Shown here: positions 2,428 through 27,535 of the stretch, in pieces
Layout: each line of letters opens with the position of its first letter
How positions within the stretch are numbered: the first letter of the stretch is position 1
DNA from: a virus
Strand: one strand, 5' to 3'
Length of the DNA: 30,605 bases
Virus record (IMG/VR): IMGVR_UViG_3300028809_000050
Location: 1-30,605 of that record
Position numbers and translations under genes: made by a program
The notes under the pieces: model-generated
Database searches by the model: none
Told to the model about the DNA's origin: nothing
Seen by the model: the letters and a program-made list of their open reading frames with translations, nothing else

Positions 2428-3087
2428 TTAGGCTGCCTTCTGTTCGGGTTGGGGGAGGCGCTTTCGAAGGTGCTCGCTGGCGTCCTCGAACTGCGGAACG
2501 GTCATCTCTTTGAGGGAGGCGATCTTGTAATGCTCGCACATGACAACGGCATCGGAGCCGGTCCTCGCGATCAGGTCGGCGATGAGCGCCCATTGGCCGT
2601 CATCGATCACGGCGGCGGGCATGGCGTCCACGGCCTTTCCGGCGATACGATCAAGCTCGCGTTGGCCCTCGGCGGTCCACTTCGACCATTTCCCGTTGTA
2701 GAGTTCACAGCGAACCCAAGGGGTCTTCATGTCGTAGAGGTAACGGCCGATGCCCCACTTGACGGCGGCGCGCTTGAAAGCGTCGGAGATGCCACCCTTG
2801 TCGCCCTCGACATCGGTCTTTCCCGCACCATCCGACTTGGATACCCAGCCATCCTCCGTGCGGATGCGGATCGTGCAGATGACGCGGCCCAGCGGGGTTT
2901 CGACATAGCTGTCTTCCCACCCATCGGGGCCGCACACCTCGTCGAGACGGTTCATCACGTCCCGGGCATCGATATATGCGAGCGCCATAGCCTTGGGGGC
3001 GTTCGGGTCACGATTGCTGACCGCCTGCGCGCGCCAGCTAATCGCCTTGGGCGGGAACGGGGCGGAGAGTTTGGCAAACACGGTCAC
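2428..3087 (-). CDS. Rad52/22-family single-strand annealing protein
   Basis: 219 aa from a GTG at 3087 with GGAGGG upstream and a GTGA overlap with the previous gene. The Rad52/22 core is plain: an N-terminal segment with MALAYIDARDVMNRLDEVCG (residues 34-53), beta strands with VICTIRIRTEDGWVSKSDG, and the signature EGDKGGISDAFKRAAVKWGI followed by GRYLYD (94-119). This family anneals complementary ssDNA independently of RecA. The C-terminal about 60 residues are a variable helical region. With SSB and the HNH-type protein it forms the phage recombination module. Confidence 0.92.
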   Translation of the reverse strand: MTVFAKLSAPFPPKAISWRAQAVSNRDPNAPKAMALAYIDARDVMNRLDEVCGPDGWEDSYVETPLGRVICTIRIRTEDGWVSKSDGAGKTDVEGDKGGISDAFKRAAVKWGIGRYLYDMKTPWVRCELYNGKWSKWTAEGQRELDRIAGKAVDAMPAAVIDDGQWALIADLIARTGSDAVVMCEHYKIASLKEMTVPQFEDASEHLRKRLPQPEQKAA

Positions 3088-3785
3088 GCTGCCCTCCGGT
3101 CTTCTCGAATGTTGAAGCCCGGAATATTGCGCGCGCCGGTATGAACGTCGGTGCGGGCCTGAGCGAGAAGCCACAGCTTCAGGGCGTCTGGCTGGGTCGC
3201 CATGTAATGGCGTAGCGCAGCCTTGGCATCGATCAGTTCCGGTTCGTAGTAGGTACGCAGGCCAATGGCGCGTCCCTCGCCGGACGCTTGAGGGCGCGCC
3301 TTCTCCGCTCGGCTGGCAACGCGATCGGCGCGCTTGGCGTCGGCGAGCAAGGTTTCAGCCTCCTCGCGTGCGGCAAGGTTCGCGGGGTCGGCGAGCTTAT
3401 CTCGTGCCTCTGTGGCCCGCGCATCCGCTGCCAGGCGCGCCAATCGAGCCTCCTCGGCACGCTCCGCCTCGATCTGACGCAGCCACGGCGAAAGGGCTGA
3501 GCGACATGCTTCAACGCCTCGATCGCACTTGTCGAGCAGTGGCTTGTACTTGACTTGGACGGCCTTGGCGGCTTCGTCGTGCGGCCGCTTCTCCTCCGCG
3601 CGAAAGCTGTCTGCATCGCGACGGGCCTTGCGCAGCTTGTCCATCAAGTCCGCGACGGCATCGGCCTGCCCTTGGTTGGCAATCGCCTCCCCGTCGAGAA
3701 AGCCTTTGGCCTCGTCGTACAGGTCGTCGATATGGAGGCCGATCGCCTCGTGGGATGGCGGATTATTGTGACCGATCTCGGTCAT
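3084..3785 (-). CDS. MTEIGHNNPP-type coiled-coil phage protein, 233 aa
   Basis: Start chosen at ATG 3785, which gives the characteristic N-terminus MTEIGHNNPP common in alphaproteobacterial phages and an ATGA overlap with the upstream gene. Residues about 55-170 form a long Ala/Arg/Glu helix (LMDKLRKARRDADSFRAEEK, then EAERAEEARLARLAADARA). The C-terminus is more globular (LRTYYEPELIDAKAALRHYM). Immediately upstream of the annealing protein, it is a likely partner in recombination, but its biochemical role is unknown. Confidence 0.85.
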   Translation of the reverse strand: MTEIGHNNPPSHEAIGLHIDDLYDEAKGFLDGEAIANQGQADAVADLMDKLRKARRDADSFRAEEKRPHDEAAKAVQVKYKPLLDKCDRGVEACRSALSPWLRQIEAERAEEARLARLAADARATEARDKLADPANLAAREEAETLLADAKRADRVASRAEKARPQASGEGRAIGLRTYYEPELIDAKAALRHYMATQPDALKLWLLAQARTDVHTGARNIPGFNIREDRRAA

Positions 3786-4423: not shown

Positions 4424-4601
4424 GACCCGCATCCTTGATATCGGTGGGTCGCGGCCCAGTCGGCCCGACAAGCGTTTCCAGAGCGGCGCGAAAACGGTCT
4501 TCGCGATGTCGCGCTGCCATGCCGAGGTGATGCGTCAGGACCGGCGCCAGGAGGCGGACCAGCTCGTTGACTGCCATTTCCTTCGGGGTCATGTCACGCA
4601 T
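4416..4601 (-). CDS. Small helical protein, 61 aa
   Basis: A strong AGGAGGTG site lies five bases before the ATG at 4601-4599. The body is helical (TPKEMAVNELVRLLAPVLTH) with a Pro-rich end. It overlaps both neighbours by 8 nt (ATGCGTGA upstream, ATGAGTGA downstream). No family recognised. The good ribosome site makes it one of the better expressed small genes of the operon. Confidence 0.65.
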   Translation of the reverse strand: MRDMTPKEMAVNELVRLLAPVLTHHLGMAARHREDRFRAALETLVGPTGPRPTDIKDAGHE

Positions 4602-4728
4602 TGGACACCTCCTTGACGCGCGTTCTCCCGATCTCGGGCAAGCGCATGTTTGTTTCTGTGAACTTCACTGATTCGAGCAGGCGGGAGAGGCGGTCACAGC
4701 CTCCGCGCACTTGGGGGAGGGCGGTCAT
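4594..4728 (-). CDS. Small paralogue C1 (MTxLPxxxGGCxRxSR family), 44 aa
   Basis: ATG at 4728 in an ATGA overlap, stop in an 8-nt overlap with the next gene. The N-terminus MTALPQVRGGCDRLSRLLES is a clear relative of the 59-aa product at 6411-6590 (MTDLPHIPGGCERFSRMLAD), at DNA level too, whereas the C-termini differ. It is the last member of a duplicated gene set in this operon. Function unknown. Confidence 0.6.
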   Translation of the reverse strand: MTALPQVRGGCDRLSRLLESVKFTETNMRLPEIGRTRVKEVSNA

Positions 4729-5024
4729 GGCGCCCAACTCCCGTCTGCAAGCCACCCGTCCGGAATGGTCTCGTCACTCGGCGGCAAGTCCCAAGTCGAG
4801 CCGTCTCCATGATCGACGCACCCGGTGTCGGGTTCGCCTTCGATGCAGGTACAGGTCCGCATCGGTCCGTGCGGGGCCGTGCAGATGCAGGCCACCGAGA
4901 AAATCGTGTGCGCCTCGTCGCCGCCAGTCTCGACCGAGCCGGTACCGAAGCAATACTCGCAGTCCGGATCAGGTTCGACCTCGATCCAGTCTGACACGCT
5001 CTTGGGATTGGAGATTGTGGTCAT
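4725..5024 (-). CDS. Cys-rich, acidic probable zinc protein, 99 aa
   Basis: ATGA overlaps join it to both neighbours. CEYCFGTG (Cys22-x2-Cys25) matches a DnaJ-type CxxCxGxG zinc knuckle, and Cys46, Cys48, Cys58, Cys60 and Cys69 could supply further ligands. The C-terminal third is acidic and Trp-containing. Unlike in the second gene set (4.4-kb versus 6.4-kb copies), it is inserted between the B-type and C-type paralogues. Role unknown. Confidence 0.7.
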   Translation of the reverse strand: MTTISNPKSVSDWIEVEPDPDCEYCFGTGSVETGGDEAHTIFSVACICTAPHGPMRTCTCIEGEPDTGCVDHGDGSTWDLPPSDETIPDGWLADGSWAP

Positions 5025-5695
5025 GCGCCGGACCCTTCGGTTCCGGCCCTGCGGGCTTCAATCGCTGACGCGGGGACGACATAGCGCCAGCCCCCGCCCC
5101 AACGCTCGTTCAGACGCTGAAAGCGTGTCGCGCTGCGCTCAACGCGGTCAGTCAGCAGCAAGGTCGCGGTGCGCGTCTCTCGGTCGTGGCGAGCTTCGTC
5201 GGTGTCGTGGATTTCGCCGTCGAACCAGCAGCGGTTCAGCCCGAAGTCGAACCCGGCGACCAATTCCGGCCCGCTGGTGAAGCCTTCGATGATGACATGA
5301 TCGACGCGGTGCCCGAGCAGCTGACCGCTGCTAACGCATGCAATGTTGGAGACGGCGGCGTATTCCTCGAACCGCTCGTACTCGTTTTCGATGCGGTAGA
5401 GGCCGAACCTGGGATCGCTGTAAACGATGTTATGATCAGCCTCACTGGGCATTGCGCGCTCGGCCGCGATGTCGGAAAAGACGTCGATATCCTTAGGCTC
5501 CACGCCGAGCAGATAGTCGCGAACCGCACCGCCAGCGATGACGGAACCGACCGGCATGACGGCGAGGATCGCGCGCCACAGATCAGGCCCGTTTGCGCTA
5601 GGGATGAGCGCCTCTGGCTGAGACTGCGCAGCAGGCTCAGGGCGAAGCCCGCCAGCCCGGTCGCCGGAAGGCGAAGCGCCCTGATCCCGGCTCAT
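5021..5695 (-). CDS. Nucleotidyltransferase-fold protein inside duplicated cassette (B1), 224 aa
   Basis: Residues 50-73 carry the nucleotidyltransferase signature: GGAVRD (55-60) then KDIDVF (68-73, with Asp69 and Asp71 as metal ligands), as in tRNA CCA-adding/poly(A) polymerase-like enzymes. VDHVIIEGF and FDFGLNRCWFDG (about 131-159) fit later strands. It lacks the long RNA-binding C-domain of CCA enzymes, so it is a minimal phage version with unknown nucleotide and substrate. The first about 30 residues (GASPSGDRAG) and the end (ASAIEAR) match the otherwise different protein at 6587-6940, so the catalytic core looks like cargo placed between shared ends. Confidence 0.8.
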   Translation of the reverse strand: MSRDQGASPSGDRAGGLRPEPAAQSQPEALIPSANGPDLWRAILAVMPVGSVIAGGAVRDYLLGVEPKDIDVFSDIAAERAMPSEADHNIVYSDPRFGLYRIENEYERFEEYAAVSNIACVSSGQLLGHRVDHVIIEGFTSGPELVAGFDFGLNRCWFDGEIHDTDEARHDRETRTATLLLTDRVERSATRFQRLNERWGGGWRYVVPASAIEARRAGTEGSGA

Positions 5696-6051
5696 TCCCC
5701 ACCCCCACAGGTGTATTCACCTTGTCCTTGGATGCGAGAGAGGACGCCTTGAACGTCATTGCGGAATTGGCGGACAACGTTGTTGTGCCGTTCCGCAACC
5801 TTGTCGTGTTCGCGCCATTCCGCGTCGATTTCCGACTGCGCAGCATTGATAACAGCGTTCACCCGCTTTAGCAGGGAAACCAGCTCATCCCTCTCAGCTA
5901 ATAGCTGAGCAGTAGATGCTTCACGGTGGGCGGCGAAGGCTTGGACGGTGGGATGATCGTCATGCCGACCGCCTAAAATCCTTGCCGCAGATTGCGCGGG
6001 ATAGACCAATTGGCCAGCCACCACGCGATCAGCCTGGATCACCTTAGCCAT
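5692..6051 (-). CDS. Paralogue A1 (MAxVIQADR family), 119 aa
   Basis: Starts MAKVIQADR, has REASTAQL (43-50) before a long helix (LLAERDELVSLLKRVNAVIN and onwards), and ends RIQGQGEYTCGGGE. The start, the REAST block and the end recur in the product at 6933-7343, while the middle differs. ATG 6051 sits in an 8-nt overlap (ATGGCTAA) with the upstream gene, and its stop overlaps the nucleotidyltransferase start (ATGA). Probably a coiled-coil early protein; function unknown. Confidence 0.75.
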   Translation of the reverse strand: MAKVIQADRVVAGQLVYPAQSAARILGGRHDDHPTVQAFAAHREASTAQLLAERDELVSLLKRVNAVINAAQSEIDAEWREHDKVAERHNNVVRQFRNDVQGVLSRIQGQGEYTCGGGE

Positions 6052-6418
6052 GATCCTTACCTTTCATCGATTGGGGAGGGGCTTCACCGCGGGCTTTGGC
6101 GATAGCGGCGCGTGCAATGGCGCCATCGGTCGAGTTAGGCCCGCAGCGCTTCACGACTAGGTAAAGCGCCTCATACAGTTTAGGCGCAGCAGCGATCAGG
6201 TGGGCGTTGGCGTTGAGCTTGTCGTCGTCGCATGAGTTCGGCCAGTTCATATCGATTACGGCGGCGGCGAACCCGGCATGCGTTGGGCTTTCGACCACCA
6301 CCCATTGGCTGGCGATCTGGCCGTTGTCGGCATCCCCACCGTTGACGGTGATGTCGAGATCGCTGTCATCGTCGGTGATGATCGACCACGGCCCCGGCGT
6401 TGCTTTGAGATCACCCAC
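6044..6418 (-). CDS. Conserved phage protein of LKATPGPW type, 124 aa
   Basis: GTG start (6418-6416) in an 8-nt overlap GTGGGTGA. The beginning GDLKATPGPWSI, the later NANAHLIAAAPKLYEALYLV and ARAAIAKARGE are hallmarks of a family very common in temperate phages, often annotated only as hypothetical. No catalytic residues are evident; the early-operon location agrees with other family members. It stands between the two copies of the duplicated set. Confidence 0.85.
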   Translation of the reverse strand: MGDLKATPGPWSIITDDDSDLDITVNGGDADNGQIASQWVVVESPTHAGFAAAVIDMNWPNSCDDDKLNANAHLIAAAPKLYEALYLVVKRCGPNSTDGAIARAAIAKARGEAPPQSMKGKDHG

Positions 6419-6590
6419 GACGGTTCTCCTCGATCATCAGGCGAGCGCGTTCAGCAGCTCCACCGTTCATGTCTGCCTTGAATTGAGCATGTGCTTTCAG
6501 GAGGCTCTGGCGGTATGGCTCCATGGCCACGTCTGCGAGCATCCTGCTGAAGCGCTCACAGCCTCCGGGGATGTGGGGGAGGTCGGTCAT
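6411..6590 (-). CDS. Small paralogue C2 (MTxLPxxxGGCxRxSR family), 59 aa
   Basis: ATG at 6590 in an ATGA overlap with the B2 gene. Starts MTDLPHIPGGCERFSRMLAD like the 44-aa C1 product; the remainder (EPYRQSLLKAHAQFKADMNG, then ERARLMIEENRRG) is its own helical tail. Its stop overlaps the GTG of the next gene by 8 nt. Function unknown; the conserved GGC-x-R-x-SR block is the only shared feature. Confidence 0.65.
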   Translation of the reverse strand: MTDLPHIPGGCERFSRMLADVAMEPYRQSLLKAHAQFKADMNGGAAERARLMIEENRRG

Positions 6591-6940
6591 GCGTCACCTG
6601 CGAGAGGTTGGGCGTCTCCACCTGCGGTGGCCGCGCTTTCGTCCTGCGGATCGAGCCGCTGTGGCGTCTCGCCGCTTCGCGCTTCAATCGCTGACGCTAG
6701 AGCAGCGAGATACCGAGCTGTCAGGGATAGGGCCTCGGCGGCGTCAAAGTGGCCCCGATAGTAGCGATAGACTAGACTGCTAACGGATGGCTCCGGGCCA
6801 GCTTCGGAATATTCCGGCAACTGAGGCTCTATGCCGAACCACGCGCTAGGGATGGAAGCCGGGACGGGCGAGACCGCTTGCGGGCTCGACGCCGAAGGCG
6901 CGACAGCCCGGTCGCCGAAAGGCGAAGCGCCATTATCCAT
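6587..6940 (-). CDS. Paralogue B2, cassette ends without nucleotidyltransferase, 117 aa
   Basis: I chose ATG 6940, overlapping the upstream stop by 8 nt (ATGGATAA) with GGAGG upstream. The N-terminus MDNGASPFGDRAVAPSA and the later LASAIEAR (about 81-88) match the ends of the nucleotidyltransferase at 5021-5695, but the core between them is short, without NTase motifs (SLVYRYYRGHFDAAEALSLT). It is either a deleted or alternative-cargo version of the same cassette. Function unknown. Confidence 0.7.
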   Translation of the reverse strand: MDNGASPFGDRAVAPSASSPQAVSPVPASIPSAWFGIEPQLPEYSEAGPEPSVSSLVYRYYRGHFDAAEALSLTARYLAALASAIEARSGETPQRLDPQDESAATAGGDAQPLAGDA

Positions 6941-7343
6941 GGCCCACCTCCCCACATCTATATTCACCTTGAATACGGGTGAGGGTTTCAAAGGCGTCGG
7001 AGATTTCCTGCGGATACTTGAAGTTCGTGAAGCCGCCTTCGTCGTCGGCCCACTTCGCGCCGCACTGGTCGCAAATTGTCCAGATGTTGCCGCCGCGGTA
7101 CGTCTCTTCGTGGAAGCAGATGTTGCGCTCGTAGTGATCCAGCGCAGCCCGCAAGGATCGAGCCAGCACAGCCAAGTCAGCTTCTAGCTTTTCAGTAGAT
7201 GCTTCACGGAACTTGGTGATGGTCTCGACGAGCAAGCAGTTGTCCGCCTCGCCCGTCTCGATCTCGACAGCGGTGAAGTTGTGCTCGAAGTAGCGGGCGC
7301 ACGCTCCAGCGCGCTCACGATCCGCCTGAATAACCGTAGCCAT
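6933..7343 (-). CDS. Paralogue A2 (MAxVIQADR family) with zinc-like knuckle, 136 aa
   Basis: Starts MATVIQADR, carries KFREASTEKLEADL (45-58) and ends RIQGEYRCGE, all shared with the product at 5692-6051. Between them it has a helix and a possible zinc site: Cys76-x-His78 and Cys91-x2-Cys94 (ICDQCGAKW), absent from A1. It joins its upstream neighbour by TAATG and the B2 gene by an 8-nt overlap. Function unknown. Confidence 0.75.
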   Translation of the reverse strand: MATVIQADRERAGACARYFEHNFTAVEIETGEADNCLLVETITKFREASTEKLEADLAVLARSLRAALDHYERNICFHEETYRGGNIWTICDQCGAKWADDEGGFTNFKYPQEISDAFETLTRIQGEYRCGEVGHG

Positions 7344-21063: not shown

Positions 21064-22271
21064 CAATGGATAACCTGGCAACCATCGAACCTTCTTCGAC
21101 CACGCTGGACCCCGGCGCGGTCACACCCACGGCTGCGGGTGGCGGCTCCCCTAATATCCCCAATGAGGCGCCGTCGCTCCGTGACAGCATCGAGGCCGCC
21201 GTCAAGGAAGTCAGCCAGCCCGAAGCCAAGGAAGGCGAGGCCGCCAAGCCTGACAAGGACGCTGACCATGAGAAGGGCGAGGCGAAGCCGAAAGAGGGGG
21301 CAGAGAAGCCGCAGGCGGACAAGAGCGAGGAAAAGCCCAAGGAGCAGCCTAAAGCCCCTGAGCGCGCCCCTGACGGCAAATTCTCGGCAAAGCCTGAAGC
21401 AGACGGCACGGAGAAAGGCGAAGGCGGCAACCAGCCGACGCAGGTCAAGCAGGGCATCTCACAAGCTCCATCGCGCTTTCTCCCCGATGCGAAGGAAAAG
21501 TGGGCGAACACGCCACGCGCTGTTCAGCGAGACGTCGAGAACCTGATCCGTGAGCGCGAGGCGGACGTCGATCGTTACCGCGAGACCTCCGAGCGCTACG
21601 AGCGCGTCCGCGACTTCGATGAACTGGCGCGGTCGAATGGCCGTGAGCTGCGAGACAGTCTCGCTCAGGTCCACCAGTTTGAGAACATGATGCGCCAGAA
21701 CCCCGTTGCAGCGCTCAACATGGCGCTGATGGAGGTCGGCCCCCGCAAGAACGATGGGCAGCCTTACTCGCTGTTCGAAATCGCTCAGGCGGTCGTGCAG
21801 CAAGGACCGGAAGCCTATCAGCGGATGATGACGCAAAGCGCGCCGGCTGAGCAACGTGAAGATCCGCGTATTGCACAGCTTCAGCAGCAGTTGCAGCAAG
21901 TGAAGGTGCAGAGCCTGACTGAACAGGTAATCGAGCCGTTCAAGGCTGAGCACCCGCGCTATGAAGAGCTGCAAGACCATATTGCGATGTTTCTGCAATC
22001 TGGTATTATTCCAAAGACCTTGAGCCTGCATGATCGGCTCGCGGCGGCGTATGACATGGCTGAGCGGATTAACCCGTCTTCACATGTCGCGAGCCAAGCC
22101 TCGAACGATCCCGGCCCTGATCCAGATACCCGCCGCGCTGACGCTGACTTCAGCGGCTCCAAATCCATCAAATCCGCGCCGGGTTCCGTCACTCCAGATG
22201 AAGAGCCTGAACGCGGCGGTTCAATCCGCGAGCAGTTGGAGCGGGCTATCCGCAACCAGCGGCGAGCATAG
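21060..22271 (+). CDS. Probable scaffolding protein, 403 aa
   Basis: Directly precedes the capsid gene. Residues about 45-130 are Lys/Glu/Pro-rich and disordered (EGEAAKPDKDADHEKGEAKP), followed by long helices (REREADVDRYRETSERYERV, then IAQLQQQLQQVKVQSLTEQV) and a polar C-terminus ending EQLERAIRNQRRA. High charge, helix content and location fit a scaffold that chaperones capsid assembly and leaves before DNA entry. The start may be ATG 21060 or 21066. Confidence 0.8.
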   Translation: MTMDNLATIEPSSTTLDPGAVTPTAAGGGSPNIPNEAPSLRDSIEAAVKEVSQPEAKEGEAAKPDKDADHEKGEAKPKEGAEKPQADKSEEKPKEQPKAPERAPDGKFSAKPEADGTEKGEGGNQPTQVKQGISQAPSRFLPDAKEKWANTPRAVQRDVENLIREREADVDRYRETSERYERVRDFDELARSNGRELRDSLAQVHQFENMMRQNPVAALNMALMEVGPRKNDGQPYSLFEIAQAVVQQGPEAYQRMMTQSAPAEQREDPRIAQLQQQLQQVKVQSLTEQVIEPFKAEHPRYEELQDHIAMFLQSGIIPKTLSLHDRLAAAYDMAERINPSSHVASQASNDPGPDPDTRRADADFSGSKSIKSAPGSVTPDEEPERGGSIREQLERAIRNQRRA

Positions 22272-23756: not shown

Positions 23757-24461
23757 ATGGTTGAACTTGCCCAGATCGACATGACCGATGTGTCTGTCAC
23801 CCCGGTTTTCAAATACATCGAGCTCGAAAACGTCCCTCAGAGCGACATCAAGGGCTGCGAGGTCCGTCGTTCGCTTGAGGTGGTCGAAATTCACACCGCA
23901 GGCTCGCGCAACTCCATCCCGGTTTTCCCGGTCGATGCGCAGTGGCGGCGAGACGGTAACCGCGTCATCACCTATGCCGAGCGCTGGCCGGAGCAGTACC
24001 GCGCTTTCAAGGAGGGTGGCCCTCAGGAGGCGCTGGGAACCCCGCTGGAAATGCTGCGCGAACATGGCATCAAGCCGGAGCACATTTCACTGTGCCGCGC
24101 TCATCGGATCTACAGCATCGAAGCGCTTCACAACCTGAGCCACGATGGCATCAAGGCGCTCGGCATCCACGCGAACACGCTTCGCGGTGCCGCTACCCAG
24201 TTCATGGCCGGTCGCGACGGGTTTGCCCGAGTGCAGGCCGAGAACGAGGAACTGCGCGCCCGCCTCGCCCGCCTTGAAGGGATGGTCACGCCTCCGGTGG
24301 CCGAGCCGCCGTCGCATGATCCCGCGCCCTCGGATATCACGACCATGGGAGATGGTGAGATCAAGGACGAGATCGAAAGGCTCGCTGGTGCACGTCCTCG
24401 CGGCAATCCCGGCCGGGACACGCTTGAGCGGCTTCTGAATGAGGCTCGGTCGCAGGCGTGA
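23757..24461 (+). CDS. Virion-region protein with HhH-like and coiled-coil parts, 234 aa
   Basis: GGAG site before the ATG. Residues 1-80 are beta-rich. Residues 104-150 (GIKPEHISLCRAHRIYSIEA, then LGIHANTLRGAATQFM) look like a helix-hairpin-helix repeat; ARVQAENEELRARLARLEG (157-175) is a short coiled coil; the end (DEIERLAGARPRGNPGRDTL) resembles a HeH/SAP-like motif. First gene after the capsid terminator. Likely a head-completion or DNA-contacting virion protein; function unproven. GTGA overlap with the next gene. Confidence 0.7.
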   Translation: MVELAQIDMTDVSVTPVFKYIELENVPQSDIKGCEVRRSLEVVEIHTAGSRNSIPVFPVDAQWRRDGNRVITYAERWPEQYRAFKEGGPQEALGTPLEMLREHGIKPEHISLCRAHRIYSIEALHNLSHDGIKALGIHANTLRGAATQFMAGRDGFARVQAENEELRARLARLEGMVTPPVAEPPSHDPAPSDITTMGDGEIKDEIERLAGARPRGNPGRDTLERLLNEARSQA

Positions 24462-25165: not shown

Positions 25166-27535
25166 GTGTACGCACGGTCACTGAACCGCCCGAAGCAGCG
25201 TAAGGCGCAACCCAAGAACTTTCCGGCTCCGGTCGGCGGTTGGGTCAGTAATCGCGCCTTGGCCACCCCTGAAGCTGGCCCTGCTCAGGGCGCGTCCATC
25301 CTGGACAACTTCTTTCCCCGATCGACCGGCGTCGTTCTTCGCCGGGGCAAGCAGCTCTACGCAACGCTGGGAGACGGATCGCTCGATTCAACGGCGATCT
25401 TCTCGTACAACAATGGTACCAACCGGAAGCTGTTCGCGGCCACCGAGGACACGATCTACGAGATCACTTCCGTGCCGTTCCCCGACAATAGCGATATCGT
25501 GACCGACGATGGCGACCGTCTTGCCGACGGCGCTGGCAATTGGTTCGGCTGGTCTTCCACGGGCGACCTGATCGCGATGGAGGGCTTCACGGGTGGAAAC
25601 TGGATCGTCGTCCAGTTCGCCACCTCTGGCGGGGTGTTTCTCGTCGGGGTCAACGGAGAGGATGACGGGTTCATTTATGATGGGGCCGACTTCTGGCCGA
25701 ACTATGGCGGCGGTCTCTGGGAAATCCCCTATGACAATGAGACGACCCCGTTCACCGAAGGATCGGTCCTGACCGGTGCAACAAGCGGCGCTACAGCTCT
25801 TATCTGGCGGGTAGAGCCGACGCGGCTCATCGTCCGCGACGTTGCATACACCCCAGAGAACTGGACGCTTCCCTATGTCGGCGGCTCGGCTGCGTTCACT
25901 GTTGGAAGCACAATACGCGGCGAGACCTCCAAGGCTTCGGCGCGCATCAAGACGATCACGCCGGGCACCACCACATGGGAGCTGCCCTATGACGGGGGAA
26001 CTGGGGCGTTCGTCGCAGCGGAAGTCGTCACCGGAACGACAAGCGGTGCCACGGCGACCGTGGTTTCCGTAGCTGGAACGACAGCAAGCGGCACGCTGAC
26101 GGTCCAATCGCTGAGCGGGGTATTTCAGGATAATGAGGCGCTGACCGGGAGTATTGCCGGGGCTGCGTCCGTCAACGGTAAGGCAAGCGCGCCGATCCTG
26201 AGCGGCACACTGGCGATAGAGGGCTTGATCGGGTCATTCGTGCAGGGCGAAGCGCTGAGGGACGGGAGCGGCGGCCTTGCTACCGTGGCTGAGCCGCAGA
26301 CCTTTGTTGGCGGTGGGTCGTTTCAGGATAACGAGACGATCACCGATGCCGACGGCGGAGACGCGCTGGTCAATGGGGATTACGGCAATGTCGTTCCCGG
26401 CATGGCGTTCCCCAACAGCCTCACGACAGCCGATATGTCCTATGTCTGGGCGTACAAGAACCGGCTGTGGTTCATCCAGAAGAACAGCCTGAACGCCTAC
26501 TACGCGGACGGGGTGGATGCGATCGGTGGCACGGCGGTGCGGTTCCCTCTCGATGGCGTCTTGGGCCGCGGTGGCTCTCTTCACTTCGGTCAGAACTGGT
26601 CGCTTGAGGCGTCGGCTGAGGGCGGGTTGGCCGAACAATGCGTGTTCATGTCCACCGAGGGCGAGGCCGCCATTTATCAGGGGCTGTATCCTGTTGATGC
26701 GTCATGGTCGAAAGTAGGCGTCTATCGAACCGGCAAGCCCCTTGGAAACCGTTCCTTCATGCGCGGTGGTGGCGACCTTGCCATCTCTACCAGTGTCGGG
26801 CTCGTCCCGCTGTCCAAGGCGATCCAGCTTGACGTGACCTCGCTCAACATCGCGACCGTCTCTTACAACATCGCAGATGCGTGGTCGGAAGCGGTGGAGC
26901 TGCGCGGGAATGACGGCTGGCAGGCTGAATTGTGGCCCGAACTCAAGATGGCGATGATCGCCCCGCCCACCACGGCGGACGCTCCCGATCCCGTGGTGTT
27001 CGTCTCGAATACCGAGACCGGGGCATGGTGCCGCTTCACGAACTGGCGGATGCTGTGCGCGGACGTCTTCCTTGGACAGATGTTCTTCGGTTCCGAGAAC
27101 GGGAAGATCTACGTTGCCAACGCAACAGGCGCCGATGACGGGGTCGCGTACACCGGGGTCGTCCTCCCGCTCTATGAAGACCTTGGAAGCCCTTCGGCAC
27201 TCAAGATCGGCACGGTCGGTCGTGTGGTGACGCGGGCGAGCGCGGTGACGAACGAACTCGTCACGATCCAAGGCGACTTCAACGAGGCGATGCCGGTCGC
27301 TCCGGATGCGACAATCATCTCCGGCGTGGGAAATCTCTGGGGTACCGGCGTGTGGGGGCAATCGATCTGGGGCGGCGCCGCGGCCAAGATCATCAACCAG
27401 AACTATCACTCGGTCGGGCAGGCCGGGTATGTTTGCTCGCTGGCCTATCAGGTGACAAGCTCCAGCCTTCAGCCGCTCGACGTGGAGCTGGTCCGCTCCG
27501 AAATGCTCTACACCACTGCGGAACTCGTCAGTTGA
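25166..27535 (+). CDS. Tail nozzle (T7 gp12-like) protein with internal repeats, 789 aa
   Basis: GTG start. Begins with FPAPVGGWVSNRALATPEAG then ILDNFFPRSTGVVLRRG, the N-terminal style of podovirus nozzle/tubular-tail-B proteins. YNNGTNRKLFAATEDTIYEI and the later CRFTNWRMLCADVFLGQMFF suggest a beta-propeller-like fold. Residues about 190-400 hold six repeats (starting near 196, 244, 282, 320, 358 and 386) of the form F-x3-E/S-x-[VIL]-x4-SGAxA-x-V, the first three preceded by WELPYD-type segments. This block looks like an inserted surface domain. The hub would form the DNA channel end of a short tail. Confidence 0.78.
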   Translation: MYARSLNRPKQRKAQPKNFPAPVGGWVSNRALATPEAGPAQGASILDNFFPRSTGVVLRRGKQLYATLGDGSLDSTAIFSYNNGTNRKLFAATEDTIYEITSVPFPDNSDIVTDDGDRLADGAGNWFGWSSTGDLIAMEGFTGGNWIVVQFATSGGVFLVGVNGEDDGFIYDGADFWPNYGGGLWEIPYDNETTPFTEGSVLTGATSGATALIWRVEPTRLIVRDVAYTPENWTLPYVGGSAAFTVGSTIRGETSKASARIKTITPGTTTWELPYDGGTGAFVAAEVVTGTTSGATATVVSVAGTTASGTLTVQSLSGVFQDNEALTGSIAGAASVNGKASAPILSGTLAIEGLIGSFVQGEALRDGSGGLATVAEPQTFVGGGSFQDNETITDADGGDALVNGDYGNVVPGMAFPNSLTTADMSYVWAYKNRLWFIQKNSLNAYYADGVDAIGGTAVRFPLDGVLGRGGSLHFGQNWSLEASAEGGLAEQCVFMSTEGEAAIYQGLYPVDASWSKVGVYRTGKPLGNRSFMRGGGDLAISTSVGLVPLSKAIQLDVTSLNIATVSYNIADAWSEAVELRGNDGWQAELWPELKMAMIAPPTTADAPDPVVFVSNTETGAWCRFTNWRMLCADVFLGQMFFGSENGKIYVANATGADDGVAYTGVVLPLYEDLGSPSALKIGTVGRVVTRASAVTNELVTIQGDFNEAMPVAPDATIISGVGNLWGTGVWGQSIWGGAAAKIINQNYHSVGQAGYVCSLAYQVTSSSLQPLDVELVRSEMLYTTAELVS
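25727..26380 (+). repeat. Six-copy protein repeat inside the nozzle gene
   Basis: Repeats begin at Phe codons 25751, 25895, 26009, 26123, 26237 and 26321. DNA similarity is still visible, for example TTTCAGGATAATGAG (26123) versus TTTCAGGATAACGAG (26321), which indicates fairly recent duplication. Spacing in codons is 48, 38, 38, 38 and 28. Confidence 0.7.

Follow-up and report, generated by a model that had tools for sequence, protein, structure and literature searches.

The stretch of DNA analysed here (the window) is a virus record of 30.6 kb (IMG/VR record IMGVR_UViG_3300028809_000050, positions 1 to 30,605), which encodes a terminase, a single-stranded-DNA-binding protein (SSB), Rad52 and a LexA-type repressor. 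Two of its genes, B1 and B2, are probably gene cassettes, the cores of which are exchanged between two inverted, folded DNA elements of about 85 nucleotides (nt). We put the probability of this reading at roughly 0.7. More generally, phages seem to trade whole genes between such folded DNA ends. Comparison at the level of sequence showed a conserved fold, inverted pairing of the copies, an open reading frame (ORF) running through the cassette, core junctions at the element edges, and avoidance of the same P1 stem or P2 type at the two ends of a cassette.

The two cassettes occupy positions 4981-5679 (B1, with a nucleotidyltransferase) and 6612-6930 (B2). The first-pass annotation had reported that the two genes share a 28-nt block with one mismatch (5653-5680 and 6904-6931) and an identical 17-nt block (5055-5071 and 6681-6697). 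Both blocks were found exactly as described. The 28-nt block forms the outer part of a folded element of 85-88 nt, present at 5595-5679 and at 6843-6930. The 17-nt block, on the other strand, is where this element begins (6612-6697; a decayed version lies at 4981-5071). At the 5' end of B2, the element containing the 28-nt block (6843-6930, plus strand) is antisense to the gene. It scored 69.7 bits with the covariance model R1 (E = 5.8e-12), and as single-stranded DNA its minimum free energy (MFE) structure is the consensus fold. The element at the 3' end, which contains the 17-nt block (6612-6697, minus strand), is sense to the gene and scored 74.4 bits (E = 5.3e-13). Gene B2 (6587-6940, minus strand) is an ORF through both elements, with its start 10 nt before the 5' element and its stop codon just past the 3' element. 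In B1 (5021-5695, minus strand, 224 amino acids), the antisense 5' element (5595-5679, plus strand) scored 52.3 bits (E = 3.8e-8), and the decayed 3' element (4981-5071, minus strand) scored 26.2 bits (E = 6.7e-4 in the whole record), all these covariance-model E-values being rough. The 5' half of the decayed copy is near-identical to an element of L020 (L-numbers denote the loci collected here, which are mostly metagenomic contigs), and its 3' half is lost. The B1 core (5072-5594, minus strand) is a nucleotidyltransferase (PHROG 1614, E = 1.5e-19; PolyA_pol PF01743, E = 8.7e-6), while the 145-nt core of B2 (6698-6842, minus strand) matched no known family in the same PHROG and Pfam searches. 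The contrast between a nucleotidyltransferase core and a different core, drawn earlier from the letters of the window, was thus borne out.

A search with B1 returned three contigs that share only about the first 65 nt of B1 (94-100% identical) and continue into unrelated reading frames. In further phages, the B2 tail follows unrelated cores. In L012 and L013, the reading frame through the shared head DNA is a different one past a one-base difference. This fact indicates that the DNA, and not the protein, is conserved. Two gapped sequence patterns applied to viral DNA gave 91 and 38 stretches with the head or the tail. Since the head, read on the opposite strand, has the plan of the tail, head and tail are one element in two orientations.

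The element is about 85 nt long and has a multi-branched hairpin fold, described as four-hairpin. The consensus fold has a closing stem of 5 bp (P1), a core helix (P2) that contains an A.G mismatch and, besides one outer hairpin, three inner ones. Conservation extends to two A.G mismatches, and the hairpin loops are mostly small and of the GNA type. The closing bases covary on the alignment (GCGCA..TGCGC, GCGCT..AGCGC, GCGCG..CGCGC, GCGAT..ATCGC and GCGTC..GACGC). In a seed alignment of 18 diverse copies, compensatory changes were found in 18 of the 23 consensus pairs. With 143 distinct copies, 24 of 26 pairs showed two-sided changes, 97.6% of the cells were paired, and the covariation was 0.610, as against 0.147 after shuffling and at most 0.061 when the structure was slid; this larger alignment was fitted to the structure, so that its covariation figures lean towards the structure. 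Only 27 G-U and 19 A-C combinations occurred among the 3613 pair cells, that is, with neither wobble tolerance nor strand bias. The near absence of G-U and of a GU/AC bias points to selection on DNA or on both strands. Selection therefore appears to act on a DNA structure or on both strands, and not on a single functional RNA strand. Side by side, L096 (1281-1365) and L064 (202-286) carry elements that are near-identical except in the outer hairpin, where both strands are changed as a block (CGGCTACGCCG in the one, CCCCTTCGGGG in the other), which amounts to several compensated changes at once. Literature searches by sequence fragment and keyword, the coverage of which left bioRxiv and most subscription papers outside, found no description of the element. 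It may be previously uncatalogued, and an earlier description may exist, above all for the plasmid copies described below.

Across the 185 loci searched, the covariance model found 377 copies, and 126 phage loci account for 323 of these. More than 100 phage contigs carry two inverted copies around single genes. Close neighbours (within 600 bp) were mostly in the order '-+' (69 of 92, with 23 expected; p = 1e-23 against one quarter). Such pairs are inverted, with the outer hairpin (P6/P1 end) facing outward, and their minimum spacing is 133 bp. In most copies CC continues the outer end, so that GGGCGC forms the cassette border. Among INPHARED phages, the 5' element consensus had no match and the 3' consensus matched only PP496355; a search by its Rad52 found no relatives of the window phage among viral contigs. 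In the Sphingopyxis phage VSN-002 (L022), which also has a telomere resolvase, a copy at 5992-6076 occupies a stretch without annotation, in antisense to the genes next to it.

A single ORF spans both ends in 41 of 101 cassettes, starting shortly before the first copy and stopping shortly after the second, and a Shine-Dalgarno-like site often precedes it. All three phases are used in reading the 5' copy (22/11/8), and mostly one in reading the 3' copy (35/4/2), of whose alternative frames one is closed by TGA.

The exchange of cores was then followed at the element edges. The same head or tail DNA surrounds different cores in L011, L012, L013 and L018-L021. The cassette idea was to be tested by looking, in related phages, for several unrelated cores that share the same ends, and such cores were found. 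This outcome supports the exchange of cores between repeated ends, on a larger scale than proposed; the handles, on the other hand, are folded DNA read in more than one frame and not the conserved protein ends first supposed. Comparison of flanks showed that core swaps at the same site break at the inner edges of the elements. For L096 and L064, the left element agrees at 91%, the right element at 97% and the right flank at 94%, as compared with 37% in the core (36% when shuffled). The right element of L128 and L072 agrees at 99%, with 23% in the core (22% shuffled), and L044 and L040 share the left flank (94%) and the left element (93%), with 25% in the core (24% shuffled). L124 and L132 have different cores and a shared flank at one end only, while L061 and L074 have different cores, both integrases, at the same site. 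Similar cores in different flanks, with homology from the inner edge onward, were found in L137/L107, L030/L110 and L074/L079, the flanks of the last pair being unmatched in this test. From end to end, the B1 core can be aligned with a complete nucleotidyltransferase gene of another phage, L002, and this gene carries no elements. The L002 protein is MNNGPELWDAILA...TGGGWKLVFGT, to which B1 of the window adds a head of 34 residues and a tail of 16 residues. Comparison of L047 with L051 suggests that an incoming cassette would take the start codon of the next gene and supply that gene with a new ribosome-binding site. It is also observed that L090 (6433-6892) and L011 (4984-5663) have the same flanks (51 bp at 98% and 40 bp at 95%), between which L011 has a cassette and L090 a different, element-free gene.

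The two ends within a cassette resemble each other no more than ends from different cassettes do (similarity score 0.578 vs 0.585). An mRNA panhandle, or matching ends within a cassette, was considered and rejected for lack of such excess similarity. In tests that control for 5'/3' position, the same P1 stem at both ends was avoided (2 observed vs 10.2 expected, P = 0.0007), as was the same P2 type (20 vs 36.3 expected, P = 0.0001). Same-strand neighbours showed no avoidance of identical P1 or P2 types. We infer that identical inverted ends would recombine together, inverting or losing the core, and that differing ends would prevent this.

In the mechanism that we propose, a gene body would be set between two inverted copies of the element with the outer (P6/P1) ends outward. 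The ORF would use an upstream ribosome-binding site and a start codon just outside one copy and would stop just after the other. As one gene takes the place of another, unrelated one, the elements would remain at the junctions or define them. During replication or recombination, the fold may act in single-stranded DNA or as a cruciform, and exchange would take place between the folded ends. Candidates for the enzyme would be phage annealing proteins (Rad52/ERF), a structure-specific nuclease, and a host or other recombinase acting in trans. The window itself encodes a Rad52-family annealing protein (2428-3174, minus strand; PF04098, E = 5.3e-21) as a candidate for the exchange. Among 19 element-bearing phage records, Rad52 was over the cut-off in 3, ERF in 8 and RecT in 0, and the suggestion that a Rad52-type protein drives the exchange in general was not upheld. 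A tyrosine recombinase occurs in 12 of the 19 records, with none in the window; at least some of these are probably the phage integrase. The Y1 transposase (PF01797) was found in none of the 19 records, the control genomes being positive; one acting in trans from elsewhere is conceivable.

Other explanations of these data should be considered. The repeats could be passive homology handles, at which a phage annealing recombinase (Rad52, ERF) or host RecA swaps the cores. Linker sequences between the modules of lambdoid phages have been proposed as sites of homologous recombination. The junctions at the element edges would fit such handles, as would the Rad52 and SSB of the window and the presence of Rad52 or ERF in 11 of the 19 records. 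It is, however, the pairing and not the sequence that is conserved, the stems varying freely with compensation, and between cassettes the ends show only moderate likeness (mean score 0.58), which is poor for homology. Homology handles would need no fold, no inverted arrangement and no avoidance of identical stems, and 8 of the 19 records, which may be fragments, have none of Rad52, ERF and RecT. We therefore regard passive handles as possible but doubtful. A non-autonomous transposon (MITE-like or IS200/IS605-like) with passenger genes and a transposase elsewhere would account for the inverted ends, the multiple copies per genome and the differing passengers. The absence of a Y1 transposase from the 19 records speaks against it, as do the ends, which are no more alike within a cassette than between cassettes, and several swaps in which cores and not whole units were exchanged; this explanation is unlikely.

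Being transcribed together with the gene, and situated close to its start and stop codons, the copies might be structured mRNA ends that control translation, stability or transcription (cis-regulatory, put/nut-like), the swaps being a by-product of mosaicism. Such RNA elements seem quite unlikely, since G-U pairs are almost missing (27, vs 19 A-C, of 3613), the copies are found in either orientation with respect to genes, the 5' copy is part of the coding sequence, where it is read in three phases (22/11/8), and Rfam 15 gave no family match for the window stretch or for 10 loci. Tandem duplication and divergence alone, with B1 and B2 as paralogues whose middles diverged, would agree with the duplication of the A and C neighbours in the same order. 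It is very improbable, because the parts of the B genes have separate histories: the B1 core is complete without the ends in L002, and the ends occur with other cores in unrelated phages. Full-length divergence after tandem duplication, named at the outset as what would overturn the cassette idea, is thus contradicted for the B cores.

It is worth noting that several observations weigh against exchange of cores between paired folded ends. The MFE folds of single copies are only modestly better than those of shuffles (z about -0.4 to -1.7). The seeds and loci were gathered by sequence pattern, and the sample is therefore biased. The sole candidate for an empty site, L051 compared with L047, is weak, with flank matches of 25-28 bp, and inspection of flanks by eye showed no target-site duplication. 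The 19 phage records do not share any one recombinase. The exchange is seen as sequence mosaics only, and homologous recombination at any repeat could leave the same mark. In plasmids and in Bacteroidales, copies lie on the same strand with no inverted pairs, which means that the pairing is not universal.

These same-strand copies were found outside phages. A genome scan gave 50 loci, mostly in Alphaproteobacteria and some in Bacteroidales. In the Bacteroidales locus L161 (922-3311), four same-strand copies alternate with one or two small genes, and each copy lies a few nt from a start or stop codon. This array resembles an integron-type array without attC. In Shinella (L147, 4962-6681), two same-strand copies lie around a phosphotransferase-like ORF, so judged by eye, and a small ORF; several Rhizobiales loci have similar single copies near ParB-like genes. 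The element consensus matched 1081 plasmid records (E up to 0.01), of which 980 are conjugative. In pCT14, PCN061p4 and R46, all copies are on one strand of the leading region. The plasmid copies lie near stbC, SSB, SprT-like, DUF932 and ard/ccg genes. L210, L211 and L212 (R46) each have 3-4 same-strand copies in gaps by stb, ccg and anti-restriction genes; those of R46 are at 22080-22162, 23791-23878 and 26296-26383, in long gaps by stbC and around the ccg/ard genes. The leading regions of IncN plasmids are known for CUP repeats, as stated in PMC6289460, which cites Delver and Belogurov 1997. Plasmid leading regions are also known for anti-defence islands and single-strand promoters (PMC11541004). 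In phages a promoter role is unlikely, since the copies lie inside coding sequence.

The element has features in common with several known systems. As in integron attC cassettes, single-gene cassettes are bounded by a site conserved in its folded DNA structure and not in its sequence, and in Bacteroidales and Acetobacteraceae the copies are arrayed on one strand and separated by short genes. Unlike attC cassettes, which have one folded site in direct arrays, the phage cassettes have two inverted copies, a multi-branched fold and an ORF through both ends; the attC core RYYYAAC ... GTTRRRY was found in 0 of 352 element copies on either strand. The R46 copies lie in the CUP-controlled leading region (CUP repeats being those of IncN R46/pKM101), where the controlled genes include antirestriction genes, and they are on the same strand and not in inverted pairs as in phages. 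CUP repeats are described in PMC6289460 as ArdK-regulated upstream sequences, whereas the phage copies are inside ORFs. The Frpo/ssi single-stranded DNA promoters likewise have a conserved single-strand fold in the same plasmid neighbourhood (PMC11541004). The phage copies differ from them in lying within coding sequence, and no -35/-10 was noticed in the GC-rich copies, for which no dedicated scan was made. The matching ends within a copy that mark transposons with terminal inverted repeats were not found here, as the scores given above indicate.

In lambdoid module linkers and relaxed recombination by annealing proteins, too, unrelated genes are exchanged at module borders marked by short conserved stretches. 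The phage element differs from them in that it is dispersed and folded, recurs around single genes at many places in a genome, and has compensatory stems and heterotypic ends. How the joints between genes form so cleanly in phage genomes, which are mosaics of single genes, has long been an open question. The joints described here bear a recognisable, folded and countable mark, which makes cassette exchange directly testable. Tentatively, and at slightly less than even odds, these copies could represent an unrecognised gene-exchange system common to phages, conjugative plasmids and bacterial genomes. In such a system a folded site with a variable closing stem would bound single genes, insertion would take its direction from the heterotypic ends, and genes, counter-defence genes included, would be swapped by an enzyme that acts on the folded strand. 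The mark at the joints also connects the accessory genes of phages to the anti-defence leading regions of conjugative plasmids.

The 73 ORFs carried by cassettes include four integrases, several DNA methyltransferases, Fic, a dCMP deaminase, an RNA ligase, DUF1643, SPFH (Band_7), helix-turn-helix and radical SAM proteins. Most of the 73 are without a family, and some ORF calls, chiefly in long cores, may be on the wrong strand. One core (L130, 2184-3137) is the CBASS inhibitor Acb3 (PF25187, E = 4e-89), and other unassigned cores may be counter-defence genes too. Reading between two elements offers a homology-free route to short accessory genes, including new anti-defence genes, as the Acb3 core illustrates.

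The neighbours of B1 and B2 were also analysed. The first-pass annotation had described three gene types, A, B and C, occurring twice in the same order. The members of all three pairs are significantly similar in the self-comparison of the window: the B start with the A end at 5595-5724 and 6843-6971 (74% over 137 columns, E = 3e-12), the C starts at 4674-4729 and 6536-6591 (79%, E = 3e-6), and the A middle at 5880-5926 and 7163-7209 (79%, E = 4e-4). The set is, however, no clean triplet. The order on the minus strand is A2-B2-C2-D-A1-B1-X-C1, so that the repeat is interrupted by two extra genes, D (6044-6418) and X (4725-5024, between B1 and C1). Upstream of each cassette, on the minus strand, the end of A2 (6933-7343) overlaps the start of B2 and the end of A1 (5692-6051) overlaps that of B1. 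C2 (6411-6590, minus strand) follows cassette B2, and its start is homologous to that of C1 (4594-4728, minus strand). A plain duplication may well account for the A and C neighbours. That the A genes belong to the cassette system, as first proposed, was not supported: they carry no folded element. The similarity of A1 and A2 is ordinary divergence after duplication together with a zinc-knuckle segment common to other phages. This zinc-knuckle-like middle of A2 (about residues 70-124), itself free of the folded element, has 58-72% identity to proteins of Stenotrophomonas, Xanthomonas and Aeromonas phages. Gene D falls in PHROG 1273 (E = 2e-17), a phage family without an assigned function.

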